DNA of 64,000 bases from Paracoccaceae bacterium (GTDB lineage Bacteria > Pseudomonadota > Alphaproteobacteria > Rhodobacterales > Rhodobacteraceae): contig JANSXS010000001.1 of NCBI GenBank assembly GCA_024742835.1, positions 62,001-126,000 on the forward strand, read 5' to 3'. The number at the start of each line of letters is the position of its first letter. Positions within the stretch are counted from its first letter, which is position 1. A program made the translations under genes and the position numbers. Below, piece after piece: positions 36,535 to 55,251 of this stretch. Below the pieces are notes generated by a model. The model had not been told where the DNA came from, searched no databases, and saw only the letters and a program-made list of their open reading frames with translations.

Positions 36535-39177
36535 TCAGAAGTTCAGCGAGATATCGCGATGCTCGGCGCTGCACGATGCCACGAAGAGCGCCTGTTCGCG
36601 GGGCAGGCGCGGCTGCTGGCGCAGACCGATCGTGTCCCGAATGCCCTCGTCATAGGTGCGCAGGCCAGGCAGCAGGTCATCCTCGGCGCGGCTGCGCCAG
36701 GCAACCTCGGCGGTAAGGATGGCTTGCGCCTCGGCGATGTTTTCCAGTGCCTCGTCCACATCGGGTGTGCGCGCGTCGATCTTGCGGCGCGCATCGGACA
36801 ACAGGCTGCGGATGTCACCCGCACCCGCCACATCGCCCACAAGGCGTTCGACCGTCTTGAATCGCTCCTCGGCTGTGTCGGCGTCCATACCCCGTGCATC
36901 GGCGGCCAGCGCGTCGATCTGGGCCTCAAGCGCGGCGAGCTTGTCGGCATCGCCGATGATCTCTTGCAGCTCTTCGATCGGTTTATAAGCCTGATCGACC
37001 GTGCGCCGATACATGCCACGCGCCCGACGGTCCTGCGCGGTGAGCTGGCCATAGGCTGTCTGGACCTCTTCCCAGCCATCAGGGATTTGTGCCAGCAGCG
37101 CGTCGCGCTCTTCCTCCATCTCTGCCCTGCGCTCGCGCTGCGCGTCGGTGTCGCCGAAACCGCGTTCAATCGCTGTGTCCAGATCGGCGATCTGGCTTGA
37201 CAGGCGGCGTGCGTCACGCTGCAAGGCCCGCACGACCGTATGCTGCGGACGGTAGTCCACCGCCTTGTCGGCCAGCTCGTCCTTCAGGGTTTCGATTTCG
37301 TCCATCAGGGTGAAGGCTTCGCGCGACTTTTCGATGCTGTCGCGGAAATCATCCTGAAGATTTTCGGGCAGGTAAGACACGTTCAGCGATGCCGCCCGGT
37401 CAATGGCTGCCTTGATCTCATCGCCGTTCTGCGCAAATTCCTGTGCCACGTAGTTTTCCACGCAATATTGCAGCGCCGGGTTGATCGGCGGTGGCGCGGT
37501 ATCCGCCGTCAGCGAACTTCGCATCGGCAGGTAGTTCACCAAGGGCGGATAGGACGCCACAATGAACAGGGCCACGATCTGCAAGGCGATGAATGGCAGC
37601 ACACCGATATAGATCTGGATCGTCTTGACGGCCTTGGACGCAACGCCGCGCAGATAGAACAGCGCAAAGCCGAAAGGCGGTGTCAGGAACGAGGTCTGGA
37701 TGTTCAGACCGATCATCACACCCAGCCACACAGCGGTGATGTTCGCCTCAGGGTCGGCCAGCAGGATCGGAGCCACGATCGGCACCACGACCACGGCGAT
37801 CTCGATGAAGTCAAGAAAGAAGCCAAGAATGAAGATGACCAGCATGACGATGGCGAACTTGGTCCAGAAACCGCCGGGCAGACCTTCGAGAAAATGCTTG
37901 ACCAGTTCCTCGCCGCCAAAGGCGCGGAAGGCCGCTGTCAGCATCGCGGCACCCAGCAGGATGATAAAGACCAGTGCCGTTGTCTTGGCGGTGTCCACCA
38001 TAACGCCGATCAGCGCGCCGTTGTTGAAATAGGCACGGAAACCGCTCCAGACCACGGAAACCATGGTGAGGCCCACGCCGAAGCTGGCCAGACGAATGGC
38101 AAACAGATCTTCGGCGTTGCGGATGTTCTGCACGTTCGGGCTGTAATTCGACAACACATAGGTGATGACCCCGAGCCCCAGGAGCGCCAGAACAGCGGGC
38201 ACGTATCGCAGGCGTCCGCCCGGATGCAGGCGGTATCCGGCCATGACAAGCGCACCGACCGCGCCGATCGCCCCGGCCTGGTTCACGGTGGCGATGCCGC
38301 CGATGATGGAGCCCAGAACCAGAACGATCAGGGCAAGCGGCGGGAACATGGCAATAAAGACCTGCCCCATGAATTTGAAGTCGTACCCGCCCTCAAACGG
38401 CACAGCCGGGGCAAGTTTTGGCCGGATCAGCGCAACTGCGAGAATAAAGACGATATAAAGCCCGACAAGCACGAGGCCCGGCACCAGCGCGCCGAGGAAC
38501 ATGTCGCCCGCACTGGTTGAGACCACGCCGAATTCCGACGGCATGACGATCTCGCCGGTGACTTCCTTGTACAGATCCTGACGCGCCTGCCCTGCCTGAT
38601 CCACGGCGGATGAAAGCTGATCCGCCAGAATGATCAGCACGATGGAGGGCGGGATGATCTGCCCCAACGTGCCGGAAGAGGCGATGATGCCTGACGACAA
38701 GGAGTTGGAATAGCCGTTGCGCATCATGGCGGGCAGCGAGATCAGGCCCATGGCGACCACGGTCGCGCCTACGATACCCGTCGTGGCGGCCAGCAGCGCG
38801 CCCACGACAACGACCGAGATCCCCAGACCGCCGGGGATCGGCCCGAACAGTTGCGCCATCGTCACCAGCAGGTCTTCGGCGATCTTGGAGCGCTGAAGCA
38901 TGATGCCCATGAAGATGAACAGCGGAATCGCGATCAGCGTATCGCGTTCAGGCTCCCAATAGACCCCGCGCAAATTCGTGACACCCGCGCTGAGCCATTG
39001 AGAGGGCCCACCGGACTCGAAAAACGCGTCGGTGTCGCCTGTAAAGAGATACCCTGCACCCGCTGCGGCCAGAATGGTGATGATCGCCGCACCGGGAAGC
39101 GAGAAGGCAACCGGATAGCCGGAGCCGAGCGCGCCGGCCATGATGACGATCAGAAGGAGGAGAAAAAATAGTTCCAT
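36535..39177 (-). CDS. TRAP transporter large permease (DctM/TakM-like) with coiled-coil extension
   Basis: 880 aa, about twice the usual 430. Residues 1-560 are the DctM membrane domain (PGGLGISVVVVGALLAATTGIVGATVV; SSGTLGQIIPPSIVLIILADQ; the second-half IGLNIQTSFLTPPFGFALFYLRG), with an insertion of two extra helices near residues 310-385 (RYVPAVLALLGLGVITYVLS; LASFGVGLTMVSVVWSGF). After TM end near LPMRSSLT, about 310 residues of mostly charged helical sequence follow (DEIETLKDELADKAVD; RRLSSQIADLDTAIERG; LAALEAQIDALAADARG), a likely coiled coil. It transports an organic acid with the DctQ and DctP partners encoded upstream. The extension's function is unknown. Confidence 0.92.
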   Translation of the reverse strand: MELFFLLLLIVIMAGALGSGYPVAFSLPGAAIITILAAAGAGYLFTGDTDAFFESGGPSQWLSAGVTNLRGVYWEPERDTLIAIPLFIFMGIMLQRSKIAEDLLVTMAQLFGPIPGGLGISVVVVGALLAATTGIVGATVVAMGLISLPAMMRNGYSNSLSSGIIASSGTLGQIIPPSIVLIILADQLSSAVDQAGQARQDLYKEVTGEIVMPSEFGVVSTSAGDMFLGALVPGLVLVGLYIVFILAVALIRPKLAPAVPFEGGYDFKFMGQVFIAMFPPLALIVLVLGSIIGGIATVNQAGAIGAVGALVMAGYRLHPGGRLRYVPAVLALLGLGVITYVLSNYSPNVQNIRNAEDLFAIRLASFGVGLTMVSVVWSGFRAYFNNGALIGVMVDTAKTTALVFIILLGAAMLTAAFRAFGGEELVKHFLEGLPGGFWTKFAIVMLVIFILGFFLDFIEIAVVVVPIVAPILLADPEANITAVWLGVMIGLNIQTSFLTPPFGFALFYLRGVASKAVKTIQIYIGVLPFIALQIVALFIVASYPPLVNYLPMRSSLTADTAPPPINPALQYCVENYVAQEFAQNGDEIKAAIDRAASLNVSYLPENLQDDFRDSIEKSREAFTLMDEIETLKDELADKAVDYRPQHTVVRALQRDARRLSSQIADLDTAIERGFGDTDAQRERRAEMEEERDALLAQIPDGWEEVQTAYGQLTAQDRRARGMYRRTVDQAYKPIEELQEIIGDADKLAALEAQIDALAADARGMDADTAEERFKTVERLVGDVAGAGDIRSLLSDARRKIDARTPDVDEALENIAEAQAILTAEVAWRSRAEDDLLPGLRTYDEGIRDTIGLRQQPRLPREQALFVASCSAEHRDISLNF

Positions 39178-39195
39178 CGGGCTGACCTGCTCTTT

Positions 39196-40164
39196 TTACA
39201 TCACGTCGGCGTGCGTCACGCGCGCGCCGGGTTCACCGCGTTTGTCGGCGATGGATTCAAGGAACTGGGCGATGAACTGGATCATCATGGTGACCGCGAA
39301 AACGCCCAGAAAGCCTGCCATGAAGTATTTCACGTAAAGGCCAAAGCCCGATTGCGTGACCTCGAACACAAGGATCGGGCCGACAATGGCGCTGGATGAG
39401 CCGCCAAAGCCGATGATCAGGATCGTCCAGCACAAGAGCATCCCCAGCAGGATGGACCCGACCGCGTTGACCTTGCCTTGGGTCTTGCGGCGCATGCCCG
39501 CGTAGAACAGGTCGACCCGCACATGCCCGTCCTCCAGCAGCGTGTAGGCCGACGCGAACAGGAACAGCGCCCCATACCAGAAGCGTACAAGATCGGCCAT
39601 GAAGGCCTGCTCATAGGAAAAGACAAAGCGGCTGATCACGATCAGCAATTCCGCCAAGACCACGAGCAGCGCGAGCCAGATGAACCCGAGCGACCGGGTC
39701 ACAGAAGCGATCAGGATGCCAAGTGCCACCAGCGGGAGGTGAAAATACATGCCGCGAAATACCGCGCGGCCCAGGTTGCCTGCAAGCTCACTGCCGACCA
39801 ACGCCTCAAGCGAGCCGTTGACGCGCAGGAACGAGACAAGCGCATCGCCAAGTCCGACTAGAACGACGACCCAGAAAGCCGCGCGCACCAAAAAGGTGTT
39901 GATGCCTGTGATGCGCGCCGCGTCTTCACGCAGGGTCGTTCCGGGCGTTCGGTTCACGCTGACAAGCGCCGCGGTGACGGTCAGGACGTAAATCGCGATT
40001 TGCAAGGCTGACTTCATGCCGCCACCTGACAAAATCGCCATGACGCCCGGGAAGTCGAACCAGAATTTCAGAATGGCGTTGACCAGAAACGCGGTCATCA
40101 CAGCCAGCATGACCCAAGCGAAAGAGCGCGAAACCAAGGCTGGCGCGCCATACGTATCCGACAT
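39196..40164 (-). CDS. TRAP transporter small permease (DctQ/TakQ-like), extended
   Basis: 322 aa against the usual 160-200. The C-terminal part has the DctQ features (FLFASAYTLLEDGHVRVDLFY, then four-helix pattern). The N-terminal 150 residues add about four helices (SFAWVMLAVMTAFLVNAI; SALQIAIYVLTVTAALVSV; FLVRAAFWVVVLVGLGDAL). The start at 40164 (MSDTYGAPAL) is preceded by GGGGGGAATCCGG. It lies 18 bases upstream of the large subunit. Together with the large subunit it forms the membrane complex. Confidence 0.9.
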   Translation of the reverse strand: MSDTYGAPALVSRSFAWVMLAVMTAFLVNAILKFWFDFPGVMAILSGGGMKSALQIAIYVLTVTAALVSVNRTPGTTLREDAARITGINTFLVRAAFWVVVLVGLGDALVSFLRVNGSLEALVGSELAGNLGRAVFRGMYFHLPLVALGILIASVTRSLGFIWLALLVVLAELLIVISRFVFSYEQAFMADLVRFWYGALFLFASAYTLLEDGHVRVDLFYAGMRRKTQGKVNAVGSILLGMLLCWTILIIGFGGSSSAIVGPILVFEVTQSGFGLYVKYFMAGFLGVFAVTMMIQFIAQFLESIADKRGEPGARVTHADVM

Positions 40165-40276: not shown

Positions 40277-41359
40277 TTATATGCCGAGGAAACGGTTCCG
40301 CTTGGCGACATAGGGCGCATCGGAATAGTTGGTCCAGACACCCACGTTGTTGCGTGCCGCAAGGAAGCTGTCGATGATCTCTTTTGCAAGCGCACTGTGA
40401 TCGCGGGTCTCTTCGATCACTTCGGTGGCCGCTTCGCCGAACGCCTCGTAGACATCGTCGTTGAACTCGCGCAGCTCGACACCATACTCGTTGATCAGGC
40501 GGTTGAGGTAGATGCCGTTCTGATAGTTCGTCTCGGCCGGCTGCCTCGCGTTCTCTTCTGCACAGGCCACGGTGATGATGAGCTTGTCGCTCTCGCTGAG
40601 ATTCGACCAGAAGTTGGCATTCATGCCAAGGCTGACCTGGCTTGCGGGCTCGTGCATACCGGGCCAGTAGTAGTACTGCGCAGCTTCATAGAGCTTGAGG
40701 AAGAAGTCGTTCCACGGACCCACCCATTCGGTTGCGTCAATGGCACCCGAGACCAGGTTTTCGTAGATCTGGCCACCCGGCAGGGACACGGGCGACGCGC
40801 CGACCTTCGACATAACATCGCCGCCAAGACCGGGAATACGCATCTTGAGACCCTTGAGGTCCTCGGGCGAGTTGATTTCCTTGTTGAACCAGCCGCCCAT
40901 CTGAAGGCCGGTGTTGCCGCAAGGAATACCCTTGATGCCGAATTCTGCGCCGATCTTGTCGAGCAGGGCCTGACCGCCGCCAAACTTCATCCACGCGTCA
41001 ATCTCGGTGTAGGTCAGGCCGAACGGTACGGCGGTGAACGGTGCCCAACCGGGGTGCTTGCCCTTCCAGTAGTAGTCTGTGCCGATATAGGCATCCGCGT
41101 TGCCAGAGGCGACCTCGTCAAAGCTGTCGAACGCACCGACGCGCTCGCCGGCGGCGAAATACTGAACCGCGATGCGGCCCGCTGTCAGTTCCTCGATGCG
41201 GGCGGCCACGCGCTGTGCGCTGGTGCCTAGGCCGGGAAAGTCACGGCCCCATGTTGACACTATGACCATGTCGATACGGTCTTGCGCGATGGCCGGTGCC
41301 GCCAGTGCGGACGCCGCCGCGCCGCCGGTGGCGACCTTCAGAAACTTACGTCTTTCCAT
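40277..41359 (-). CDS. TRAP transporter substrate-binding protein (DctP family, TakP-like)
   Basis: 360 aa. Export signal MERRKFLKVATGGAAASALAAPAIAQ with a twin-arginine pair; mature start DRIDMVIVSTWGRDFPGLGT. TakP-like features are ATEWVGPWNDFFLKLYEAAQYYYWPGMHEP and PFGLTYTEIDAWMKFGG. Relatives bind 2-oxoacids such as pyruvate as a dimer with a cation, and a similar ligand is likely. Start 41359 chosen because AAGGAGG lies 9 bases upstream; the ATG three codons earlier is too close to it. Confidence 0.9.
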   Translation of the reverse strand: MERRKFLKVATGGAAASALAAPAIAQDRIDMVIVSTWGRDFPGLGTSAQRVAARIEELTAGRIAVQYFAAGERVGAFDSFDEVASGNADAYIGTDYYWKGKHPGWAPFTAVPFGLTYTEIDAWMKFGGGQALLDKIGAEFGIKGIPCGNTGLQMGGWFNKEINSPEDLKGLKMRIPGLGGDVMSKVGASPVSLPGGQIYENLVSGAIDATEWVGPWNDFFLKLYEAAQYYYWPGMHEPASQVSLGMNANFWSNLSESDKLIITVACAEENARQPAETNYQNGIYLNRLINEYGVELREFNDDVYEAFGEAATEVIEETRDHSALAKEIIDSFLAARNNVGVWTNYSDAPYVAKRNRFLGI

Positions 41360-41790: not shown

Positions 41791-43374
41791 GTGATCGAAA
41801 CAGCTTTTGGCCTGCGCAGCGCCTTCACCGCCCCACACCGTCTTGCCACCAAGGCCGGTGCGGATGTGCTGGAATCCGGCGGCAGTGCGATCGAGGCGAT
41901 GGTCGCTGCGGCTGCTACCATTGCCGTGGTTTACCCGCATATGAACGGGATCGGCGGCGATGGGTTCTGGCTGATCAAGCGGCCGGGTCAGGCGCCGGTG
42001 GGTGTGTTCGCCTGCGGCCAGGCGGCTGGGCTGGCGACGCCGGAATGGTATGCTGATCAGGGTTTTACCATGGCCTTGCCGTCGCGTGGCGGGCTTGCCG
42101 CGCTGACCGTGCCCGGCACGATCGGCGGTTGGGGCCGGGCGCTGTCGCTGGTTGAGGGCGGGCATCGCCCGCTGGCAGAGCTTTTGGCACCCGCGATTCG
42201 CTATGCCCGTGACGGCATCGCCGTGACCCGCAATCAGTCGGCCACGACGCGCGAGAAACTTGACGGTCTGGCGGATGTGCCGGGCTTTGCCGAGGCGTTT
42301 CTTGTTTCGGGCAAGGTGCCCGAGACCGGCAGCCCGTTACGCCAGACCATGCTGGCCGAGACGCTGGCGCGTCTGGCCGAGGCGGGGCTGGAGGATTTCT
42401 ATAGCGGCGATCTGGCGGCGACCCATGCCGCGTTTCTTGAGCGTGCGGGCAGCCCGCTGCGGGCCGCCGACTTTGCCGACTATGCCGCCCGTCAGGTCAC
42501 GCCGCTGACCATCCAGACCCGGCAGGGTCAGCTTTACAACATGATCCCGCCGACCCAAGGCATGGCCGCGCTTGGCATTCTTGGCACGTTCGACCGTCTG
42601 GGCGTCGAAAAGGGAGAGACATTCGCCCACTGGCACGGGCTGGTCGAATCCACCAAGCAGGCCTTTATCACCCGCAACAGCGAACTGGGTGACGAACGCA
42701 TGATGCGCCAGCCCGCGCAGGAGTTCCTCACGGATGCCGAGCTAGACCGCATGGCGGGTGAGGTGGACATGACCCGCGCCGCGCCGTGGCCGCATGATCC
42801 GGTGCCGGGTGACACCATCTGGATGGGTGCCGCCGATGCCGATGGCACGGTTGTCAGCTTTATCCAAAGCGTGTTCTGGGAATTCGGATCGGGTCTGACC
42901 TGCCCGGAAACGGGTGTCTTCTTCCAGAACCGTGGCGCGGGCTTTTCTTTGAAACCCGGCCCCAACCAGCTTGCCCCCGGCAAGCACCCGTTCCATACGC
43001 TGATCCCCGGTATGGCGGAACTTAATGACGGGCGGGTGTTTTCCTATGGCACCATGGGCGGCGAGGGCCAGCCCCAGACACAGGCCGCCGTGTTCAGCCG
43101 CTACGCGATGTTCGGCCAGCCCCTGCAACAAGCGGTCAGCGCGCCCCGGTGGCTTTTGGGCAAGACATGGGGCGACAGCACCGACAGTCTCAAGATAGAG
43201 GCCAACGCCGACCCCGCGCTGGTGCAAAGCCTTCGCGATGCAGGCCACGATATCGAATTGCTGGACCCGTTCTCCAGCCTTGCGGGCCACGCGGGCGGGG
43301 TGGTGCGCCACGCTGACGGGCGCACCGAGGCGGCCAGCGATCCGCGGAGCGATGGTGTGTCCTTCGCGGAATAA
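41791..43374 (+). CDS. Gamma-glutamyltransferase-family hydrolase (oxamate-amidohydrolase-like)
   Basis: 527 aa Ntn-hydrolase. GGT-type opening FGLRSAFTAPHRLATKAGADVLESGG, oxyanion region AVVYPHMNGIGGDGFWLI, and the autoprocessing nucleophile Thr342 (PGDTIWMGAADADGTV). The variant HMNGIGGDGFWLI and the absence of a signal peptide fit the cytoplasmic HpxW/oxamate-amidohydrolase branch better than periplasmic glutathione-degrading GGT. Starts with GTG at 41791 after GAAGGAAATC. It is divergent from the 2-oxoacid-type TRAP operon. HpxW would connect to purine breakdown encoded elsewhere in the window, but that is inference. Confidence 0.8.
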   Translation: MIETAFGLRSAFTAPHRLATKAGADVLESGGSAIEAMVAAAATIAVVYPHMNGIGGDGFWLIKRPGQAPVGVFACGQAAGLATPEWYADQGFTMALPSRGGLAALTVPGTIGGWGRALSLVEGGHRPLAELLAPAIRYARDGIAVTRNQSATTREKLDGLADVPGFAEAFLVSGKVPETGSPLRQTMLAETLARLAEAGLEDFYSGDLAATHAAFLERAGSPLRAADFADYAARQVTPLTIQTRQGQLYNMIPPTQGMAALGILGTFDRLGVEKGETFAHWHGLVESTKQAFITRNSELGDERMMRQPAQEFLTDAELDRMAGEVDMTRAAPWPHDPVPGDTIWMGAADADGTVVSFIQSVFWEFGSGLTCPETGVFFQNRGAGFSLKPGPNQLAPGKHPFHTLIPGMAELNDGRVFSYGTMGGEGQPQTQAAVFSRYAMFGQPLQQAVSAPRWLLGKTWGDSTDSLKIEANADPALVQSLRDAGHDIELLDPFSSLAGHAGGVVRHADGRTEAASDPRSDGVSFAE

Positions 43375-48390: not shown

Positions 48391-50274
48391 ATGGCCGCAT
48401 CTTGGGTGATGTTTCAACCAGGTGAAAAGGGGCTGCGCTTGCGCAAACGACATTGGACCGCCGGTCTTGCCCTTGGTGCGGCGGGGCTGTTTCTGGCGGC
48501 GCTTTTGCTGGTCTTTCCGGTGCTGGAGCGGGTTTACCTCAATCAGCTTGGGCAGCGCGAATCCTCTACGCTGACCCTTGCGGTCGAGGGGCTGAAAGGC
48601 TCTTTGCGCCGGTTCGAGGCGTTGCCCGCACTGATTGCCGACACCCCCGGTCTGGCGCAGGCGCTGCGCGATCCCGCCGATCCCGCGTTGCTTGAACGGG
48701 TCAATGCGGATCTGCGGCGCACCGCCCGCGAGGTGGGCCTGTCGGATATCTTCCTGATCGATACCGACGGGCTGACCATCGCCGCCAGCAATCACTGGAA
48801 AGAGCTATCCTTTGTCGGCCAGAATTTCGCCTATCGCCCGTATTTTACTGGCGCGCTGTCCGGCGAGCAGGGCCGCTTCTTCGCGCTGGGCACGACCTCG
48901 GGCGAGCGCGGGTATTTCTTTGCCGAGCCTGTGCGGGACGGCGCGGAAATCCTTGGGGTGCTGGCGGTCAAGTTCACCGTCGATGGCTTTGAAAAGGCCT
49001 GGCGCGACGGCACCAATGATATCATCGTTCTGGACGAGGCCGGGGTGATCTTCATGGCCAGCAGGCCTGATTGGCATTTCCGCGCGCTGGAGCCGCTGAC
49101 CCGTGCGGCGCTTGCCCGGATCGAACAGACCAAGCAATATCCGATGGACCAGCTACGCCAATTGCGGACCACGCGCCGCGCGGCCGAGGCGGGGTTCGAG
49201 CAACTGCAAATCACTGGTGCCACCGGCACCACGGAAACCTTCATTGTCCAAAGCCAGATGATTCCCGAGGCGGGCTGGCAGGTGTCGTTGCTGACCCCGG
49301 CGGACCCGGCATGGACACGCGCGGCGGGCACCTTTGCACTGTCGGCCCTGCTGCTTGTGCTGATCGGGCTGGTCGCGACAGTGGTCCTCTTGCGCCGGAT
49401 GCAGTTGCAGGAACGCATCAATGCCGCCCTGTCCATGCAAGTGGAACTGGAACACCGGGTCACGCAGCGCACCGCCGAATTGAAGGCGGCCAATATCCAC
49501 ATCACTCAGGAGGTCGAGGAACGCCGCGCCGCCGAAACGCTTTTACGGCAAACGCAGACCGAGCTTATCCAGGCTGGAAAGCTGGCCGCGCTGGGGCAGA
49601 TGTCGGCGGCGCTCAGCCATGAATTCAACCAGCCGCTCGCGGCGGTGAAATCCTTTGCGCGCAATGCGCTGGCCTATCTTGACCGGGGCGAGGCGGACAA
49701 GGTGCGCCAGAATGTCGGCATGATCGACGACATGGCCGACAGGCTGGCCGCCATTTCCACGCATCTGCGCAGTTTTGCGCGGCGTCCCGGCGAAAGGACC
49801 GAACCGATCCGGCTTGACCGCGCCATCGACGGCGCGCTGGCCATCGTCGAGCCAAAGATGCGCGCCGCCGGCTGCCGGGTAGACCGCCAAGGCAACAGCG
49901 CGGCGCTTAGGGTGCTGGGCGGCCAAGTCCGGCTGCAACAGGTTTTCGTCAACCTGCTCAGCAATGCGGTGGATGCCATGGCCGACGATCCCGAGCCTGT
50001 CATCGGGCTGCATATCGTCACGGATGCGACCCATGCGCGTGTCACCGTGCGCGATCACGGCGCGGGCATGACCGCGGATGAAATCGCCCAATTGTTCGAT
50101 CCGTTCTTTACCACAAAGGAGCCGGGCAAGGGGCTTGGGCTGGGGCTGTCGATCTCTTATAACATCGTGCGCGACTTCGGTGGTATGCTGGAGGGGCGCA
50201 ATCACCCGCAGGGCGGGGCGGTGTTTTCGGTGACGCTGTCACTGGCGCCTGTGGCGATGGAGGCGGCGGAATGA
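48391..50274 (+). CDS. DctB-family membrane sensor histidine kinase
   Basis: 627 aa. TM1 near 22-43, a periplasmic double-Cache sensor (about 45-305; FLIDTDGLTIAASNHW, GRFFALGTTSGERGYFFAEP), TM2 near 313-335, a coiled coil (350-395), then HisKA with the phosphoaccepting His410 (ALSHEFNQPLAAVKSFARNAL) and the ATPase N, G boxes (NLLSNAVDAMAD; VRDHGAGM; GLGLGLSISY). Start could be 48391 or the ATG at 48409. Stop overlaps the regulator start (ATGA). DctB relatives sense C4-dicarboxylates; the TAXI-TRAP genes downstream are the presumed target. Confidence 0.92.
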   Translation: MAASWVMFQPGEKGLRLRKRHWTAGLALGAAGLFLAALLLVFPVLERVYLNQLGQRESSTLTLAVEGLKGSLRRFEALPALIADTPGLAQALRDPADPALLERVNADLRRTAREVGLSDIFLIDTDGLTIAASNHWKELSFVGQNFAYRPYFTGALSGEQGRFFALGTTSGERGYFFAEPVRDGAEILGVLAVKFTVDGFEKAWRDGTNDIIVLDEAGVIFMASRPDWHFRALEPLTRAALARIEQTKQYPMDQLRQLRTTRRAAEAGFEQLQITGATGTTETFIVQSQMIPEAGWQVSLLTPADPAWTRAAGTFALSALLLVLIGLVATVVLLRRMQLQERINAALSMQVELEHRVTQRTAELKAANIHITQEVEERRAAETLLRQTQTELIQAGKLAALGQMSAALSHEFNQPLAAVKSFARNALAYLDRGEADKVRQNVGMIDDMADRLAAISTHLRSFARRPGERTEPIRLDRAIDGALAIVEPKMRAAGCRVDRQGNSAALRVLGGQVRLQQVFVNLLSNAVDAMADDPEPVIGLHIVTDATHARVTVRDHGAGMTADEIAQLFDPFFTTKEPGKGLGLGLSISYNIVRDFGGMLEGRNHPQGGAVFSVTLSLAPVAMEAAE

Positions 50275-51614
50275 TCCCGGCGGGACCGATCCTTTTTGTC
50301 GATGATGAAGAGCCCCTGCGCATCGCGGCGCAGCAAACGCTGGACCTGGCGGATCTTGAGTGCCTGTGTTTCGACCGCGCCGCCGACGCGCTGGCGCGGA
50401 TAGACCCCGAGTTTCCCGGTATCCTGGTCAGTGACATCCGGATGCCGGGGATGGATGGCACCGCACTTTTGCGGGCCGCGCTGCAAAAGGATCCCCAATT
50501 GCCGGTGATCCTTGTGACCGGGCATGGTGATCTGGATCTGGCGGTGTCGATGATGCGCGAAGGGGCCTATGATTTCATTGAGAAACCCCATGCGCCCGAA
50601 CGTCTGGTGGATGCGGTGCGCCGCGCGCTGGCGATGCGCCGCCTGACCATCGAGAACCGGCAATTGCGATCCGAGGTCGCGCCGCTGATCGCCAGCAAGG
50701 ACGGGCTGCGCGGCTTCAGCAAGGAAATGGAGACCGTGCGCAAACAGATCACCGCCGTTGCCGCGAGTGACGCGGATGTGTTGATCGTGGGCGAAACCGG
50801 CACCGGCAAGGGGCTGGCTGCACAGGCGCTGCACGCGGCCAGCGCGCGGGCCGACCGGCCCTTTGCGGCGATCAATTGCGCCGCCTTGCCGGACACCATG
50901 ATAGAAAGCGAGCTTTTCGGGCATGAACCCGGTGCCTTTGCGGGGGCGGCACGGGCGCGCGCGGGCAAGTTCGAACATGCCCGGCGCGGCACCATCTTTC
51001 TGGACGAGATCGACAGTCTGCCGCGCGCGCTTCAGGCCAAGCTTTTGCACGCGGTCGAGACCCGCGCGATCAGCCGGCTTGGCTCGCACGAGCGGATCGA
51101 CCTTGACGTGCGGTTCATCGCGGCGTCGAAATCCGATCTCGAAGCGGCCGCCGCACAGGGCACTTTTCGCAGTGATCTGCTCTACCGGCTCAACGTGGTG
51201 ACGATTCGGATGCCGCCGCTGGCCGCGCGGCGCGAGGATATCCCGATGCTGTTCCTGACCTTCGTGGGGCAGATGGCCGAACGCTACAAGCAGCCGGTGC
51301 CACAGGTGCCGGGTGCGGTGCTGGATGCCATCGCTGCCCGTGCCTGGCCCGGCAATGCCCGTGAATTGCGCAACGCGGCAGAGCGCTATGTGCTTGGCCT
51401 GCCGGATGTCGCCGATCAGCAGGGGCCGCCACCGGGCACGTTGGTGGAACGGGTCGCCGAACACGAGCGCGCGCTGATCGCCGCCAGCCTGGCCGTCAAT
51501 GCGGGAAGGCTCAAGGACACGTATGAGGCGCTGGGCATTTCGCGCAAGGCGCTTTACGAAAAGATGCAGCGCCACGGGCTGGACCGCGAGTCGTTTGTCG
51601 ACCCGGACGGTTGA
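50271..51614 (+). CDS. DctD-family sigma-54-type response regulator
   Basis: 447 aa. Receiver (DDEEP; phosphoacceptor Asp55 in VSDIRMPGMDG; Lys in FIEKPHAPE), AAA+ with Walker A GETGTGKG (174-181), Walker B TIFLDEIDSL, and a Fis-type HTH (YEALGISRKALYEKMQRHGL). The sigma-54 loop reads GAFAGA (221-226) instead of GAFTGA. It is cotranscribed with the sensor kinase. No good -24/-12 promoter was found upstream of the TAXI-TRAP operon, so the mode of activation is open. Confidence 0.92.
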   Translation: MIPAGPILFVDDEEPLRIAAQQTLDLADLECLCFDRAADALARIDPEFPGILVSDIRMPGMDGTALLRAALQKDPQLPVILVTGHGDLDLAVSMMREGAYDFIEKPHAPERLVDAVRRALAMRRLTIENRQLRSEVAPLIASKDGLRGFSKEMETVRKQITAVAASDADVLIVGETGTGKGLAAQALHAASARADRPFAAINCAALPDTMIESELFGHEPGAFAGAARARAGKFEHARRGTIFLDEIDSLPRALQAKLLHAVETRAISRLGSHERIDLDVRFIAASKSDLEAAAAQGTFRSDLLYRLNVVTIRMPPLAARREDIPMLFLTFVGQMAERYKQPVPQVPGAVLDAIAARAWPGNARELRNAAERYVLGLPDVADQQGPPPGTLVERVAEHERALIAASLAVNAGRLKDTYEALGISRKALYEKMQRHGLDRESFVDPDG

Positions 51615-51840
51615 GCGCAAGGCGCTTTCGCGCTACGCAGTTGGGGATGTGTCGGGTTCGACCCAAGAAACGCGGGCTTTGTTCCCGTCGTGACCCACCG
51701 GGTCGAAAAACTTGCCCTTGTCCGAAATGTTTGCGGAAACGGTGCTAGGCGATCCACGCTTCGGCATGGTTGCTAAGCCGCGACCCGGCAGGGAGCAACG
51801 GTCCGGGCATATCATCAACAGACGCATTCGGGAGGAACCA

Positions 51841-52830
51841 ATGCAGAAACTCACAGCACTCACCTTTGCCGCGACCGTCGCGGTTACAGGCCACGCCTTT
51901 GCACAGGACGATGTGGACCGCACCGGCTGGCCGGACAGCTTTACCGTTGGCACCGCGTCGCAGGGCGGCACCTACTTCGCCTATGGCTCGGGCTGGGCGA
52001 ATCTTGTCGCCGACGAGCTTGGCGTGTCGGGCGGCGGCGAAGTGACCGGCGGGCCGATGCAGAACATGGCGCTGGTGCATACCGGCGATGCGCAATTCGG
52101 CATGACGACCATGGGCCCTGCGGCGGAATCTCTTGCCGGAACCAACCCGATCGCTCCGGGTCTGGCCATGAGCAATGCCTGCGCAATGTTCCCGATGTAT
52201 CAGACACCGTTCAGCGTAACGGCGCTGTCGTCTTCGGGCATCACAGCGGTGGCCGATATCCCTGACGGGGCGCGCATCGGCTTTGGCCCCGCCGGTTCGA
52301 CCTCCGACACCTATTTCCCCCGCATGATGGAAGAGCTGGGTGTGGATTTCGAGCGCCGCAACGGTGGCTGGTCCGACCTTGGCGGTCAGCTTCAGGACGG
52401 TCTGCTGGACGTGATCGCCTTTGCCGCCGGTGTGCCGGTTCCGGCCGTCAGCCAGCTTGAGGTGCAGACGGATGTGAACATCATCGAGTTCACCGAAGAA
52501 GAGCAGGCCAAGATCATGGCGGCGTTCCCCGTCTCTGCCTTCGAGATCGCCGCCGATACCTACACCACGCTGGAAGCGCCCGCGCGCTCGGTGTCGATGT
52601 GGAACTTCGCCATTGCCAATTGCGACCTGCCCGCCAGCTTTGTCGAGGCGGCTGTCGATGTGGTGATGTCCGACAACGAGCGCATGGTGAACATCCACCG
52701 TGCCGCGCGCTCGACCCTGCCCGAGAACTGGGACAAGAACGGCGTGCTCAAGTGGCATCCCGGCGCGGCCCAGTGGTTCAAGGAAAATGCGGGGGCCGAT
52801 ATCCCCGATGACATGATCCACGGCATGTAA
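51841..52830 (+). CDS. TAXI-family TRAP transporter substrate-binding protein
   Basis: 329 aa. Sec signal MQKLTALTFAATVAVTGHAFAQ, mature TAXI features SFTVGTASQGGTYFAYGSGWANLVADEL, VHTGDAQFGMTTMGP and the GGWSDLGGQLQDGLLDVIAFAAG lobe. TAXI proteins bind small organic acids (glutamate/2-oxoacid type). It follows the DctBD-like pair and precedes a fused TRAP permease, with a hairpin between. The start is supported by GGGAGGAACC. About 225 bases separate it from the regulator; nothing else was seen there. Confidence 0.92.
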   Translation: MQKLTALTFAATVAVTGHAFAQDDVDRTGWPDSFTVGTASQGGTYFAYGSGWANLVADELGVSGGGEVTGGPMQNMALVHTGDAQFGMTTMGPAAESLAGTNPIAPGLAMSNACAMFPMYQTPFSVTALSSSGITAVADIPDGARIGFGPAGSTSDTYFPRMMEELGVDFERRNGGWSDLGGQLQDGLLDVIAFAAGVPVPAVSQLEVQTDVNIIEFTEEEQAKIMAAFPVSAFEIAADTYTTLEAPARSVSMWNFAIANCDLPASFVEAAVDVVMSDNERMVNIHRAARSTLPENWDKNGVLKWHPGAAQWFKENAGADIPDDMIHGM

Positions 52831-52841
52831 ACAAAACAGAG

Positions 52842-52871
52842 GGCGCGGCGTGCCGTCAGGTGCGCCGCGCC
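52842..52871 (+). terminator. Hairpin between TAXI binding-protein and permease genes
   Basis: GGCGCGGCG (52842-52850) pairs with CGCCGCGCC (52863-52871) around a 12-base loop; GTGTTTGTTT follows. It may be a partial terminator that raises binding protein over permease. Confidence 0.65.
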
Positions 52872-52977
52872 GTGTTTGTTTCGTCTCCCCCGCGCAGCGC
52901 GGGCATGGGGGCGGGTTTTGTTCGGAACATCGAAGCGCCGACGCGAGGGCCAAGGCGGCTTTGCCAGGGAGGTGGCT

Positions 52978-55251
52978 ATGGTTCAGCAGACAACACAAGC
53001 CGAAGAGGCCGTGATCGCAGACGGCATTGATGAAGAGCCGGTCGAGAATAACCGGCGCAGTTTTGATGGGTGGCGGATGCAGGCCGTGGCCGGTTTCGCC
53101 GCGCTTTACGCCCTGTTTCACATGGCTGCGCTCAATGGTGTGTCGATCTCGGATTATACCGGAATCACCATTCCGTTCCTGCCGCAATTCCCCATGGAAA
53201 CATGGAATTTCCGCATTGTGCATATCGCCGGGGCGCTGGCCCTTGGCTTTGTCGTCTATAACGCGATGATGTTTTCTGACAGCGACGAGCCATCCGCCAA
53301 CGAAAGCAATATCTGGGGCAAGGTCGCCTATGTGCTGTTGCTGCCCGCATTGCTGGCGGTGGGCGCGGGGCTTTGGTTTGCGCGCAACATCGCCTCGGGT
53401 ACGCTGCCGGAAATGGGCGGGCTGGTGACATGGCCGGCCTTTGCGGGCTCGCCGCTTCAGATGCAGGAAATCTGGTATTTCGGCCTCCCTTTGCTGGCGG
53501 CGACGGCAGGGGGGATCATACTGGGCTGGCTGGAAAAGGCCCCGCGCGACCGGTTCCGGGTCTCGGATATCGTGCTGGCGATCTGCGGTGTCGCGGTCGC
53601 CGTGTATCTGATCGCGGTTTACGGGACCGCCGCGCGCAACGCGGTCGGCACGCCGTTTGTGCCCATGGGCGTGGCCTTTGCCGCGACCGCAGGCTCCGCG
53701 CTGATCCTGGAACTGACGCGCCGTGTCGCGGGGCTGGCGCTGGTGATCATTACCGGCGTTTTCCTGCTTTACACCTTTGTCGCGCATATGTTGCCGGGTA
53801 TCCTTGCCGTGCAAAGCGCCTACACATGGCAGCGGTTTTTCGGCCATGTCTATTCGGACGCGGGCATCCTTGGGCCGACAACGGCGGTGTCATCGACCTA
53901 TATCATTCTGTTCATCATCTTCGCGGCCTTTCTTCAGGCTTCCAAGGTGGGGGATTATTTCGTCAACTTCGCCTTTGCCGCCGCCGGGCGGGCGCGGGGC
54001 GGCCCGGCCAAGGTCGCGATCTTTGCCTCTGGCCTGATGGGCATGATCAACGGCACCTCGGCGGGGAATGTGGTGGCAACCGGGTCCCTGACCATTCCGC
54101 TGATGAAAAAGGTGGGTTACCGCCCGACCACCTCCGGCGCGGTAGAGGCCGCCGCCTCCACGGGTGGGCAGATCATGCCGCCGATCATGGGGGCAGGGGC
54201 CTTTATCATGGCCGAGATCACCGGCATCCCTTATCAGGAGATCGCCATTGCCGCGATCATCCCGGCGGTGCTGTATTTCGTGTCGGTCTATTTCATGGTC
54301 GATTTCGAAGCCGCCAAGCTGGGTATGCGCGGTATGCGCGAAGACGAGCTGCCCAAATTCAACAAGCTGGTCCGGCAGGTCTATCTGTTCATCCCGATTG
54401 TGATCCTGATCGCGGCGCTGTTCATGGGCTATTCGGTGATCCGCGCGGGCACGCTGGCCACTGTTGCGGCGGCCGTGGTGTCCTGGCTGACACCCAACCG
54501 CATGGGGTTGCGCGCGATCCTGAAAGCGTTCGAGCTGGCAGGCATCATGTCGATCCAGATTATTGCCGTCTGCGCCTGCGCGGGTATCATCGTCGGGGTC
54601 ATTTCGCTGACCGGGGTGGGCGCGCGGTTTTCGTCGGTGCTGCTGGATCTGGCCGGTGTCAGCCAGCTTCTGGCGCTGTTCTTTGCCATGTGCATCGCGA
54701 TTCTGCTGGGCATGGGGATGCCCACGACGGCAGCCTATGCGGTTGCGGCCTCGGTCGTGGCACCGGGCCTTGTGCAGCTTGGTATTCCGATGCTGACAGC
54801 GCATTTCTTCGTGTTCTACTTCGCGGTCCTGTCGGCGATCACGCCGCCTGTGGCGCTTGCAAGTTACGCGGCGGCGGGCATTTCGGGGGCCAACCCGATG
54901 GAGACGAGCCTTGTCAGCTTCAAGATCGGGATCGCCGCCTTCATCGTGCCGTTCATGTTCTTCTACAACTCGGCGCTGTTGATGGATGGCACCTGGTACG
55001 AGGTCGGGCGCGCCGGGCTGACCGCAGTCTTTGGCGTGTTCCTGTTGTCGGGCGGTGTGCAGGGCTGGTTTCTTGGACGGCGCGCGGCCTGGTTCATCCG
55101 GGCGGGCCTTGTGCTTGCGGCGCTGTTCATGATCGAGGGTGGATTGGTGACGGACCTTGTCGGCGTGGGCACCGTGGTAGGCGTGTGGCTGGTGCAACGG
55201 GTGTTCCGTCCCAGCCCCGACGCCACGATCCCGGTGCGCGGCGCGGATTGA
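52978..55251 (+). CDS. Fused TRAP transporter permease (DctQM type, TAXI-associated)
   Basis: 757 aa. N-terminal DctQ-like four-helix part (about 30-290) fused to a DctM-like domain (SAGILGPTTAVSSTYIILFIIFAAF; INGTSAGNVVATGSLTIPLMKK; ASTGGQIMPPIMGAGAFIMAEITG; LLGMGMPTTAAYAVAASV). The fusion is the norm for TAXI systems. It forms the Na+-coupled membrane channel working with the preceding binding protein. Start at 52978 follows GGGAGGTGGCT; further upstream in-frame ATGs give an unlikely Arg-rich leader. Confidence 0.94.
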   Translation: MVQQTTQAEEAVIADGIDEEPVENNRRSFDGWRMQAVAGFAALYALFHMAALNGVSISDYTGITIPFLPQFPMETWNFRIVHIAGALALGFVVYNAMMFSDSDEPSANESNIWGKVAYVLLLPALLAVGAGLWFARNIASGTLPEMGGLVTWPAFAGSPLQMQEIWYFGLPLLAATAGGIILGWLEKAPRDRFRVSDIVLAICGVAVAVYLIAVYGTAARNAVGTPFVPMGVAFAATAGSALILELTRRVAGLALVIITGVFLLYTFVAHMLPGILAVQSAYTWQRFFGHVYSDAGILGPTTAVSSTYIILFIIFAAFLQASKVGDYFVNFAFAAAGRARGGPAKVAIFASGLMGMINGTSAGNVVATGSLTIPLMKKVGYRPTTSGAVEAAASTGGQIMPPIMGAGAFIMAEITGIPYQEIAIAAIIPAVLYFVSVYFMVDFEAAKLGMRGMREDELPKFNKLVRQVYLFIPIVILIAALFMGYSVIRAGTLATVAAAVVSWLTPNRMGLRAILKAFELAGIMSIQIIAVCACAGIIVGVISLTGVGARFSSVLLDLAGVSQLLALFFAMCIAILLGMGMPTTAAYAVAASVVAPGLVQLGIPMLTAHFFVFYFAVLSAITPPVALASYAAAGISGANPMETSLVSFKIGIAAFIVPFMFFYNSALLMDGTWYEVGRAGLTAVFGVFLLSGGVQGWFLGRRAAWFIRAGLVLAALFMIEGGLVTDLVGVGTVVGVWLVQRVFRPSPDATIPVRGAD

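Follow-up and report, generated by a model that had tools for sequence, protein, structure and literature searches.

A predicted periplasmic helical arm on the M subunit of a clade of DctP-type TRAP transporters occurs together with an extended Q subunit

Among tripartite ATP-independent periplasmic (TRAP) transporters, cryo-electron microscopy (cryo-EM) structures are available for the DctP-type SiaQM/HiSiaQM and IseQM, and for TakP, the binding protein of the Rhodobacter TakPQM system, the Na+/pyruvate ligands are given as Tyr100, Gln156, Arg177, Glu214, Trp215 and Glu240 (PMC1839085). PpSiaM was found to be N-out/C-out by cryo-EM (PMC9971032), and the part of the FnSiaQM paper drawn on here infers a periplasmic C-terminus, stating no direct observation of it (PMC11801797). 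Natural fusions of M to P are described (PMC9352664). The open-access literature, as judged from titles and abstract openings among the matches listed, gave no account of a DctP-type TRAP subunit bearing a tail that is helical or periplasmic, and the text of a TRAP review contains neither the word "extension" nor "coiled" (PMC5812351). We analyzed a TRAP operon in a stretch of 64,000 nucleotides from a Paracoccaceae bacterium (assembly GCA_024742835.1, contig JANSXS010000001.1, positions 62,001 to 126,000 of the forward strand; the whole stretch is called the window), in which the M subunit carries a long C-terminal helical tail, here called the arm. The tailed transporter is a genuine and conserved variant within a type already known, and we have high confidence in the anatomy and membrane side of the arm taken jointly.

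The operon consists of the P, Q and M genes, which are adjacent and all on the minus strand in the list of open reading frames (ORFs) of the window. An earlier model reading of the DNA (the sequence-only reading) had given M as 880 aa, and the ORF coordinates confirmed this and give Q as 322 aa. M matches Pfam DctM (PF06808; 207 bits, cut-off 23.8, E 5.6e-61) and scores 249.5 with NCBIfam TIGR00786, under the cut-off of 268.45. Q matches PF04290 (DctQ) over residues 174-305 only (39.6 bits, cut-off 28.3) and no NCBIfam model, and P matches PF03480 (DctP; 163.7 bits, cut-off 23.4). The features, in window positions, are as follows.

36535..39177, minus strand: M subunit, DctM/TakM-like, 880 aa (Pfam match and SiaM fold)
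36538..37521, minus strand: M C-terminal tail, residues 553-880, predicted periplasmic helical arm (AlphaFold2, homologues, topology)
37462..37464, minus strand: Cys572, invariant, at the start of the arm (30/30 in a first set, 64/64 in a second)
36571..36573, minus strand: Cys869, invariant, at the end of the arm and followed by a motif close to HxDxSLxF (30/30; 62/62 rows reaching the position)
38026..38214, minus strand: M mid-protein insert, residues 322-384, two extra helices (AlphaFold2 and tail-less relatives)
38503..38580, minus strand: M region 200-225, a loop that the assigned topology places in the periplasm, larger in the tailed clade (loop comparison)
38992..39060, minus strand: M region 40-62, a loop that the assigned topology places in the periplasm, slightly larger in the tailed clade (loop comparison)
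39196..40164, minus strand: Q subunit, 322 aa (Pfam match, AlphaFold2)
39685..40164, minus strand: Q N-terminal extension, residues 1-160, four extra helices, seen here only beside tailed M
40277..41359, minus strand: P subunit, a TakP-like DctP-family binding protein with a Tat-like signal

The signal of P scored 17.5 bits with Pfam TAT_signal, below the cut-off of 22.7. Residue numbers of P are one too high, P as analyzed beginning one codon ahead of the likely ATG.

AlphaFold2 was run on family alignments of full-length M and full-length Q. For M (64 homologues) the mean predicted local distance difference test (pLDDT) score was 82.9 and the predicted template modelling score 0.73, with parts of the membrane core (pLDDT blocks down to 51-69) less confident than the tail. 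SiaM (7qha_B, residues 1-427) superposed on model residues 6-557 (Z 35.6, root-mean-square deviation 3.4 Å, 422 residues aligned), and the structure 9pym_A on the membrane core with Z 33.9. Since the SiaM alignment ends at residue 557, everything after it is extra, and PpSiaM, which at 427 aa also has no mid-insert, ends where the tail here begins. The enlargement of M that had been read from the letters, two additional mid-protein helices and a helical tail of about 310 aa, was thus recovered by the AlphaFold2 model and the SiaM alignment. The tail was predicted to be helical throughout residues 567-871, with ten-residue pLDDT blocks mostly at 84-95, two at 79-80 and the last at 78, which is a confident helical prediction and not a disordered one. 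Its helices span residues 567-596, 605-672, 677-696 and 702-742, with shorter ones following to 871; the longest has 68 residues and would measure ~100 Å by helix arithmetic. Judged by its list of helices, the tail looks like a coiled-coil hairpin joined to a set of shorter helices. The coiled coil proposed by the sequence-only reading is supported as a helical, coiled-coil-like structure, which does not look like one long coiled coil. Hydrophobicity averaged over the 64 homologues, with no null model, was periodic at 3.4-3.6 residues in six of six windows within 613-754 and lost its periodicity near the end of the tail. Such periodicity fits a coiled coil, though alone it cannot separate one from other amphipathic helices.

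Scans of the tail with Pfam and NCBIfam gave only weak coiled-coil matches below the cut-offs (KASH_CCD, SMC and others), and no peptidoglycan-binding or other named domain above cut-off. No hydrophobic segment in the tail exceeded the threshold used. In comparisons with solved structures, the best helical entries (BRIL chimeras and a designed cage) reached Z 8.9-9.8 over 83-93 residues at model positions 739-836, which is below a meaningful level for helical bundles, and they were rejected as a known fold for the tail.

The location of the tail in the periplasm is well supported by comparative anatomy, because the tail starts where PpSiaM ends and PpSiaM is C-out. In M, loops assigned as cytoplasmic had 0.157 Lys plus Arg per residue versus 0.054 in the periplasmic ones, the sides having been assigned by us from the model on the PpSiaM topology. 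The natural M-P fusions also speak for a periplasmic C-terminus of M. Control of gating, one of the roles suggested earlier, is unlikely to be exerted from the cytoplasm by a tail outside the inner membrane. The membrane side was absent from the sequence-only reading, as were the two invariant cysteines and P as the obvious partner.

Conservation of the tail was uneven. Mean pairwise identity was 28.5% in the tail and 70.8% in the core, and tail length was nearly constant across the clade; the tail is not a chance addition, because it was kept across the clade at low identity with nearly constant length. The conservation peaks lie at the base of the arm (PPP-N-P-L-Q-x-C) and at its end (G851, R853, Q855, C869, H873, D875, S877, L878 and F880), the C-terminal motif departing from its usual form in three loci (L054, L057 and L070; L numbers are our handles for loci). 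The middle of the arm is weakly conserved apart from three islands (642-650, 699-702 and 723-728), G785 and W827-R828. A docking face could lie at the base and in the islands rather than along the entire arm. Cys572 was present in 64/64 rows and Cys869 in all 62 rows that reach the position, and no other column had Cys in more than 26 of the 64 (L103 was left out of alignment A2). The two cysteines were separated by 297-312 residues in 62/62 rows and by 280-307 in the first set of 30. There was no cysteine beyond these two in 22 of the 30 M proteins of the first set and 21 of the 64 of the second. Because both are invariant and one stands at either end of a helical domain in the periplasm, Cys572 and Cys869 quite likely form a disulfide.

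The second enlargement in the operon is in Q, which has ~160 extra N-terminal residues ahead of the DctQ match. Eight long helices appear in the model of Q (50 homologues, pLDDT 85.8), and helices one to four belong to the extension, as compared with a total of four in the Q domain of the SiaQM type in the descriptions cited (PMC9352664, PMC9971032). An N-terminal enlargement of about 150 residues with four helices had been anticipated from the sequence. An origin of the extension by internal duplication of DctQ was considered and rejected, as hhalign gave probabilities of 0.14 and 0.50% between the halves, and no PDB match to Q was better than E 1.1.

The enlargements of the two subunits occur together. 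In the window's class, 385 genomes were compared: the Q extension by itself picks out 32 and the tailed M likewise 32, with 31 in common. Both exceptions among the 33 are contig ends (the contig of genome G109 stops immediately upstream of M, and in G036 a contig end cuts M after 116 residues). A second sample, the 80-locus set, holds the best 80 of 582 confirmed loci, of which 64 are tailed (one cut by more than half of the tail) and 16 are tail-less. Q lengths were taken as ORF lengths from the first start codon, which makes some too long. Q was found in 61 of the 63 tailed loci that reach beyond M residue 700, and 59 of these Q proteins have 316-381 aa, one being cut by a contig end (L054) and one interrupted (L078); the Q proteins of the 16 tail-less loci have 153-260 aa. 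A further set of 29 tailed loci had 27 complete Q proteins of 331-369 aa, and a further 20 tail-less loci gave 16 usable ones of 167-222 aa, the others being L127 (match on the other strand), L131 (none), and L132 and L135 (over-long ORFs). Because the M tail and the Q extension occur together as a linked package, their joint evolution, which the sequence-only reading had put forward as a possibility, is well founded. In the SAR11 locus L078 (5013-5693), the interrupted Q, a 226 aa ORF, lies ahead of a full-length tailed M, which could reflect a frameshift, an error or a pseudogene.

The mid-protein insert had been expected to belong to the same package, and this did not hold. Its helices are at 326-344 and 355-384 in the model, and the insert (52-67 residues) was present in 26 of the 28 tail-less M proteins compared and missing in two; these 28, from a total of 36, were those above 330 bits. 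The insert is, as judged from these relatives, separate from the tail. Two loops do differ in the tailed clade: loop 200-225 has 26 residues versus a median of 12 in tail-less M, and loop 40-62 has 23 versus 18. M relatives without the mid-insert in L125 and L128 carry other C-terminal extensions (125 and 45 aa) unlike the arm, that of L125 being Pro/Ala-rich.

The tail is confined to a minority of the genomes matched by M and to one M clade, and is not a general property of DctM families. The full M query matched 222 of the 385 genomes at E <= 1e-20, and among the matches listed a full-length match was found in 30, with one more reaching residue 744 and one cut at a contig end at 368. An apparent long match to residue 692 in L100 was rejected as read-through past a stop codon. 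At E <= 1e-8 the tail was found in 48 of 295 genomes of the window's family; a single further genome of the window's genus was searched and had no tail. Across the phylum, tail profile A4 matched in 7 of 398 genomes including the window's (8 matches), and because every match sits in an open frame of 885-903 residues, the tail was not found apart from M in these genomes. The tailed clade is mainly alphaproteobacterial, SAR11 included. The 80-locus set covers Rhodobacteraceae, Rhizobiaceae and Roseibium, Rhodospirillales, Pelagibacteraceae, SAR116 and some Gammaproteobacteria, as well as bins labelled Desulfofustis and Deltaproteobacteria.

In a tree of the M core without the tail (127 rows, including 14 of Pelagibacteraceae as well as SAR116 and Rhodobacteraceae rows), the 91 tailed rows formed one side of a single branch with a Shimodaira-Hasegawa-like approximate likelihood ratio test support of 99. 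No tail-less row fell inside the tailed clade and no loss of the tail is needed on this tree; the tail may have a single origin. The tree was built by a quick method and has long branches (L131 the worst); L082 and tailed cores shorter than 480 residues (L090, L103) were left out.

P is TakP-like (E 3.5e-66 to TakP), with matches to the structures 4pet, 5cm6, 2hzk and 7ug8, and its C-terminal stretch aligns with TakP up to TakP residue 350 of 365, which covers most of the swapped-helix stretch. A TakP-like P accompanies 58 of the 64 tailed loci in the 80-locus set, and five of the six misses are contig ends. The comparison of P proteins used 55 of these 58 plus the window's, after dropping two cut proteins and the distant P of L080, against 23 tail-less P. 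All six TakP ligand residues were kept in 56/56 tailed P, and this conservation makes a small 2-oxo acid with Na+ the likely cargo. The operon encodes a DctP-type TRAP transporter that is most likely Na+-coupled and imports small 2-oxo acids. At 24 well-conserved positions the tailed P differ from the tail-less P, and eight of these are in stretches that we matched to helices alpha2 and alpha5, which are described as docking on M in SiaPQM (PMC9971032). At position 198, the counterpart of HiSiaP E172, all 56 tailed P have Q and none of the 23 tail-less P does; changing HiSiaP E172 to Arg is described as giving one of the strongest growth defects (PMC9352664). Positions 79, 83, 85, 88 and 90, in the stretch matching alpha2, also differ. 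These changes near the docking helices are suggestive of a docking role.

While the location of the arm is well supported by the anatomy, we infer its function. The disulfide would pin both ends of the arm together at the membrane surface, and the middle, made of the 68-residue helix and its return strand and about 100 Å long by helix arithmetic, would project into the periplasm. Arm, extended Q and the two enlarged periplasmic M loops would then offer P a larger platform for docking, on which it is captured, oriented or retained while the elevator cycles. We favor this reading because a disulfide-pinned hairpin on the P-docking face coincides with an extended Q and a changed P interface, and we give docking of P about an even chance of being the main role of the arm. 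Contact with another protein is the likeliest of the roles that the sequence-only reading had put forward.

Several observations weigh against docking of P. A weakly conserved arm middle is atypical for a specific binding surface. A TakP-like P also accompanies 12 of the 16 tail-less loci, and because tail-less relatives use it too, the arm is not needed for such a P; in L070 (Roseibium aggregatum) no P was found in ~4.9 kb upstream and 6 kb downstream. The enrichment of P differences in the docking stretches had p = 0.0006 when all positions served as the null, and was modest (p = 0.03) under the stricter null of conserved positions, the regions having been chosen after the list was seen. P, Q and M may simply have diverged together as one clade.

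The main rival is a structural device that leaves P untouched, in which the arm pairs with that of a second QM unit to form an oligomer, or braces M on the extended Q. It explains equally well the coupling to Q, seen in the co-occurrence with the extra Q helices, and an arm middle that is weakly conserved yet constant in length, and would suit the coiled-coil-type periodicity; HiSiaQM, moreover, is described as able to dimerise through Q (PMC10942642). We nevertheless consider it rather unlikely, as the cysteine pair points to a hairpin closed within one M chain, a shape more in keeping with an antiparallel coil than with a homodimeric one, and the clade-specific changes in P lie near the docking helices.

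Two further readings have lower probability. The length of the 68-residue helix would allow the arm to act as a tether or spacer that reaches a porin of the outer membrane, peptidoglycan or an enzyme of the periplasm, for example the gamma-glutamyltranspeptidase whose gene adjoins the operon, and a look-alike of this gene (name read from sequence) was found in 10 of 61 tailed versus 0 of 16 tail-less flanks. A dedicated partner gene was nevertheless rejected, as no neighbor is as constant as P and the most frequent cluster occurred in 13 of the 61 tailed flanks. With no peptidoglycan-binding or other named domain above cut-off and no convincing solved fold either, we regard a tether as improbable. 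Low identity in the tail interior would agree with a helical addition that is stable yet dispensable and has no specific role, carried along by the success of its operon, an explanation to which we give almost no credence in view of the invariant cysteines and their narrow spacing, the near-invariant PPP-N-P and C-terminal residues, and a tree with no tail-less row in the clade.

Other genes of the window and of related loci were also noted. The gamma-glutamyltranspeptidase gene (PF01019) is at 41791-43374 on the plus strand, divergent from the TRAP operon. A second TRAP system, at 51712-55251 on the plus strand, comprises an NMT1_3-family binding protein, which we take to be of the TAXI type, and after it a protein of 791 aa in which DctM starts at residue 274. 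The latter (52876-55251) is the one other protein in this genome matched by the DctM model and is probably a fused QM. Directly upstream, at 48391-51614 on the plus strand, are a histidine kinase with a Cache domain and a response regulator of the sigma-54 type, DctB/DctD-like by domain order and a likely regulator of the second system. In seven Pelagibacteraceae loci (L061, L062, L063, L065, L071, L072 and L075) a ketopantoate reductase-like gene, read from sequence, adjoins the tailed M downstream on the other strand; its substrate would be a 2-oxo acid. Locus L070 (3213-8661) has a tailed M and a long Q, with a gene for a major facilitator superfamily transporter upstream in place of P, and its M keeps both cysteines with an atypical C-terminal end.

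A bolder form of the docking proposal, which we consider a long shot, is that the arm permanently holds a dimeric TakP-type P on the membrane unit. A hairpin of ~100 Å could be about two stacked P proteins tall, and could steady the outer monomer during delivery of substrate from the inner one to the elevator. If this were true, a shuttling substrate-binding protein system would have become one with a fixed receptor, as in the membrane-bound pathway proposed as a model for TakP (PMC1839085). The arm touches on the capture and release of TRAP binding proteins and on the reason for the TakP dimer, and a clade with a built-in, conserved periplasmic arm lends itself to a clean test by deletion. 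In the set examined, marine bacteria commonly belong to the clade, which so bears on organic acid uptake in the sea.

Compared with known systems, the operon is nearest in its binding protein to TakPQM of Rhodobacter (TakP, 2hzk/2hzl), sharing the six ligands, and most of the stretch that forms the swapped helix in TakP can be aligned. The osmosensory porter ProP is likewise a secondary transporter with a C-terminal coiled coil (PMC4272814). The nearest functional precedent for the arm is the claw of the TAXI-TRAP transporter VcGluQM (DUF3394), which is likewise a C-terminal addition with a soluble domain on the periplasmic face and is predicted in the account cited to grip or dock its binding protein (PMC11574862). 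The ProP coiled coil is cytoplasmic and short, and ProP belongs to an unrelated family. Claw and arm are unrelated, and DUF3394 was absent from the Pfam matches of M at E <= 1. The claw is described as mainly beta and as inserted between the second and third of three added membrane helices (PMC11574862), whereas the arm is predicted to be all-helical and follows the last normal helix of the core.

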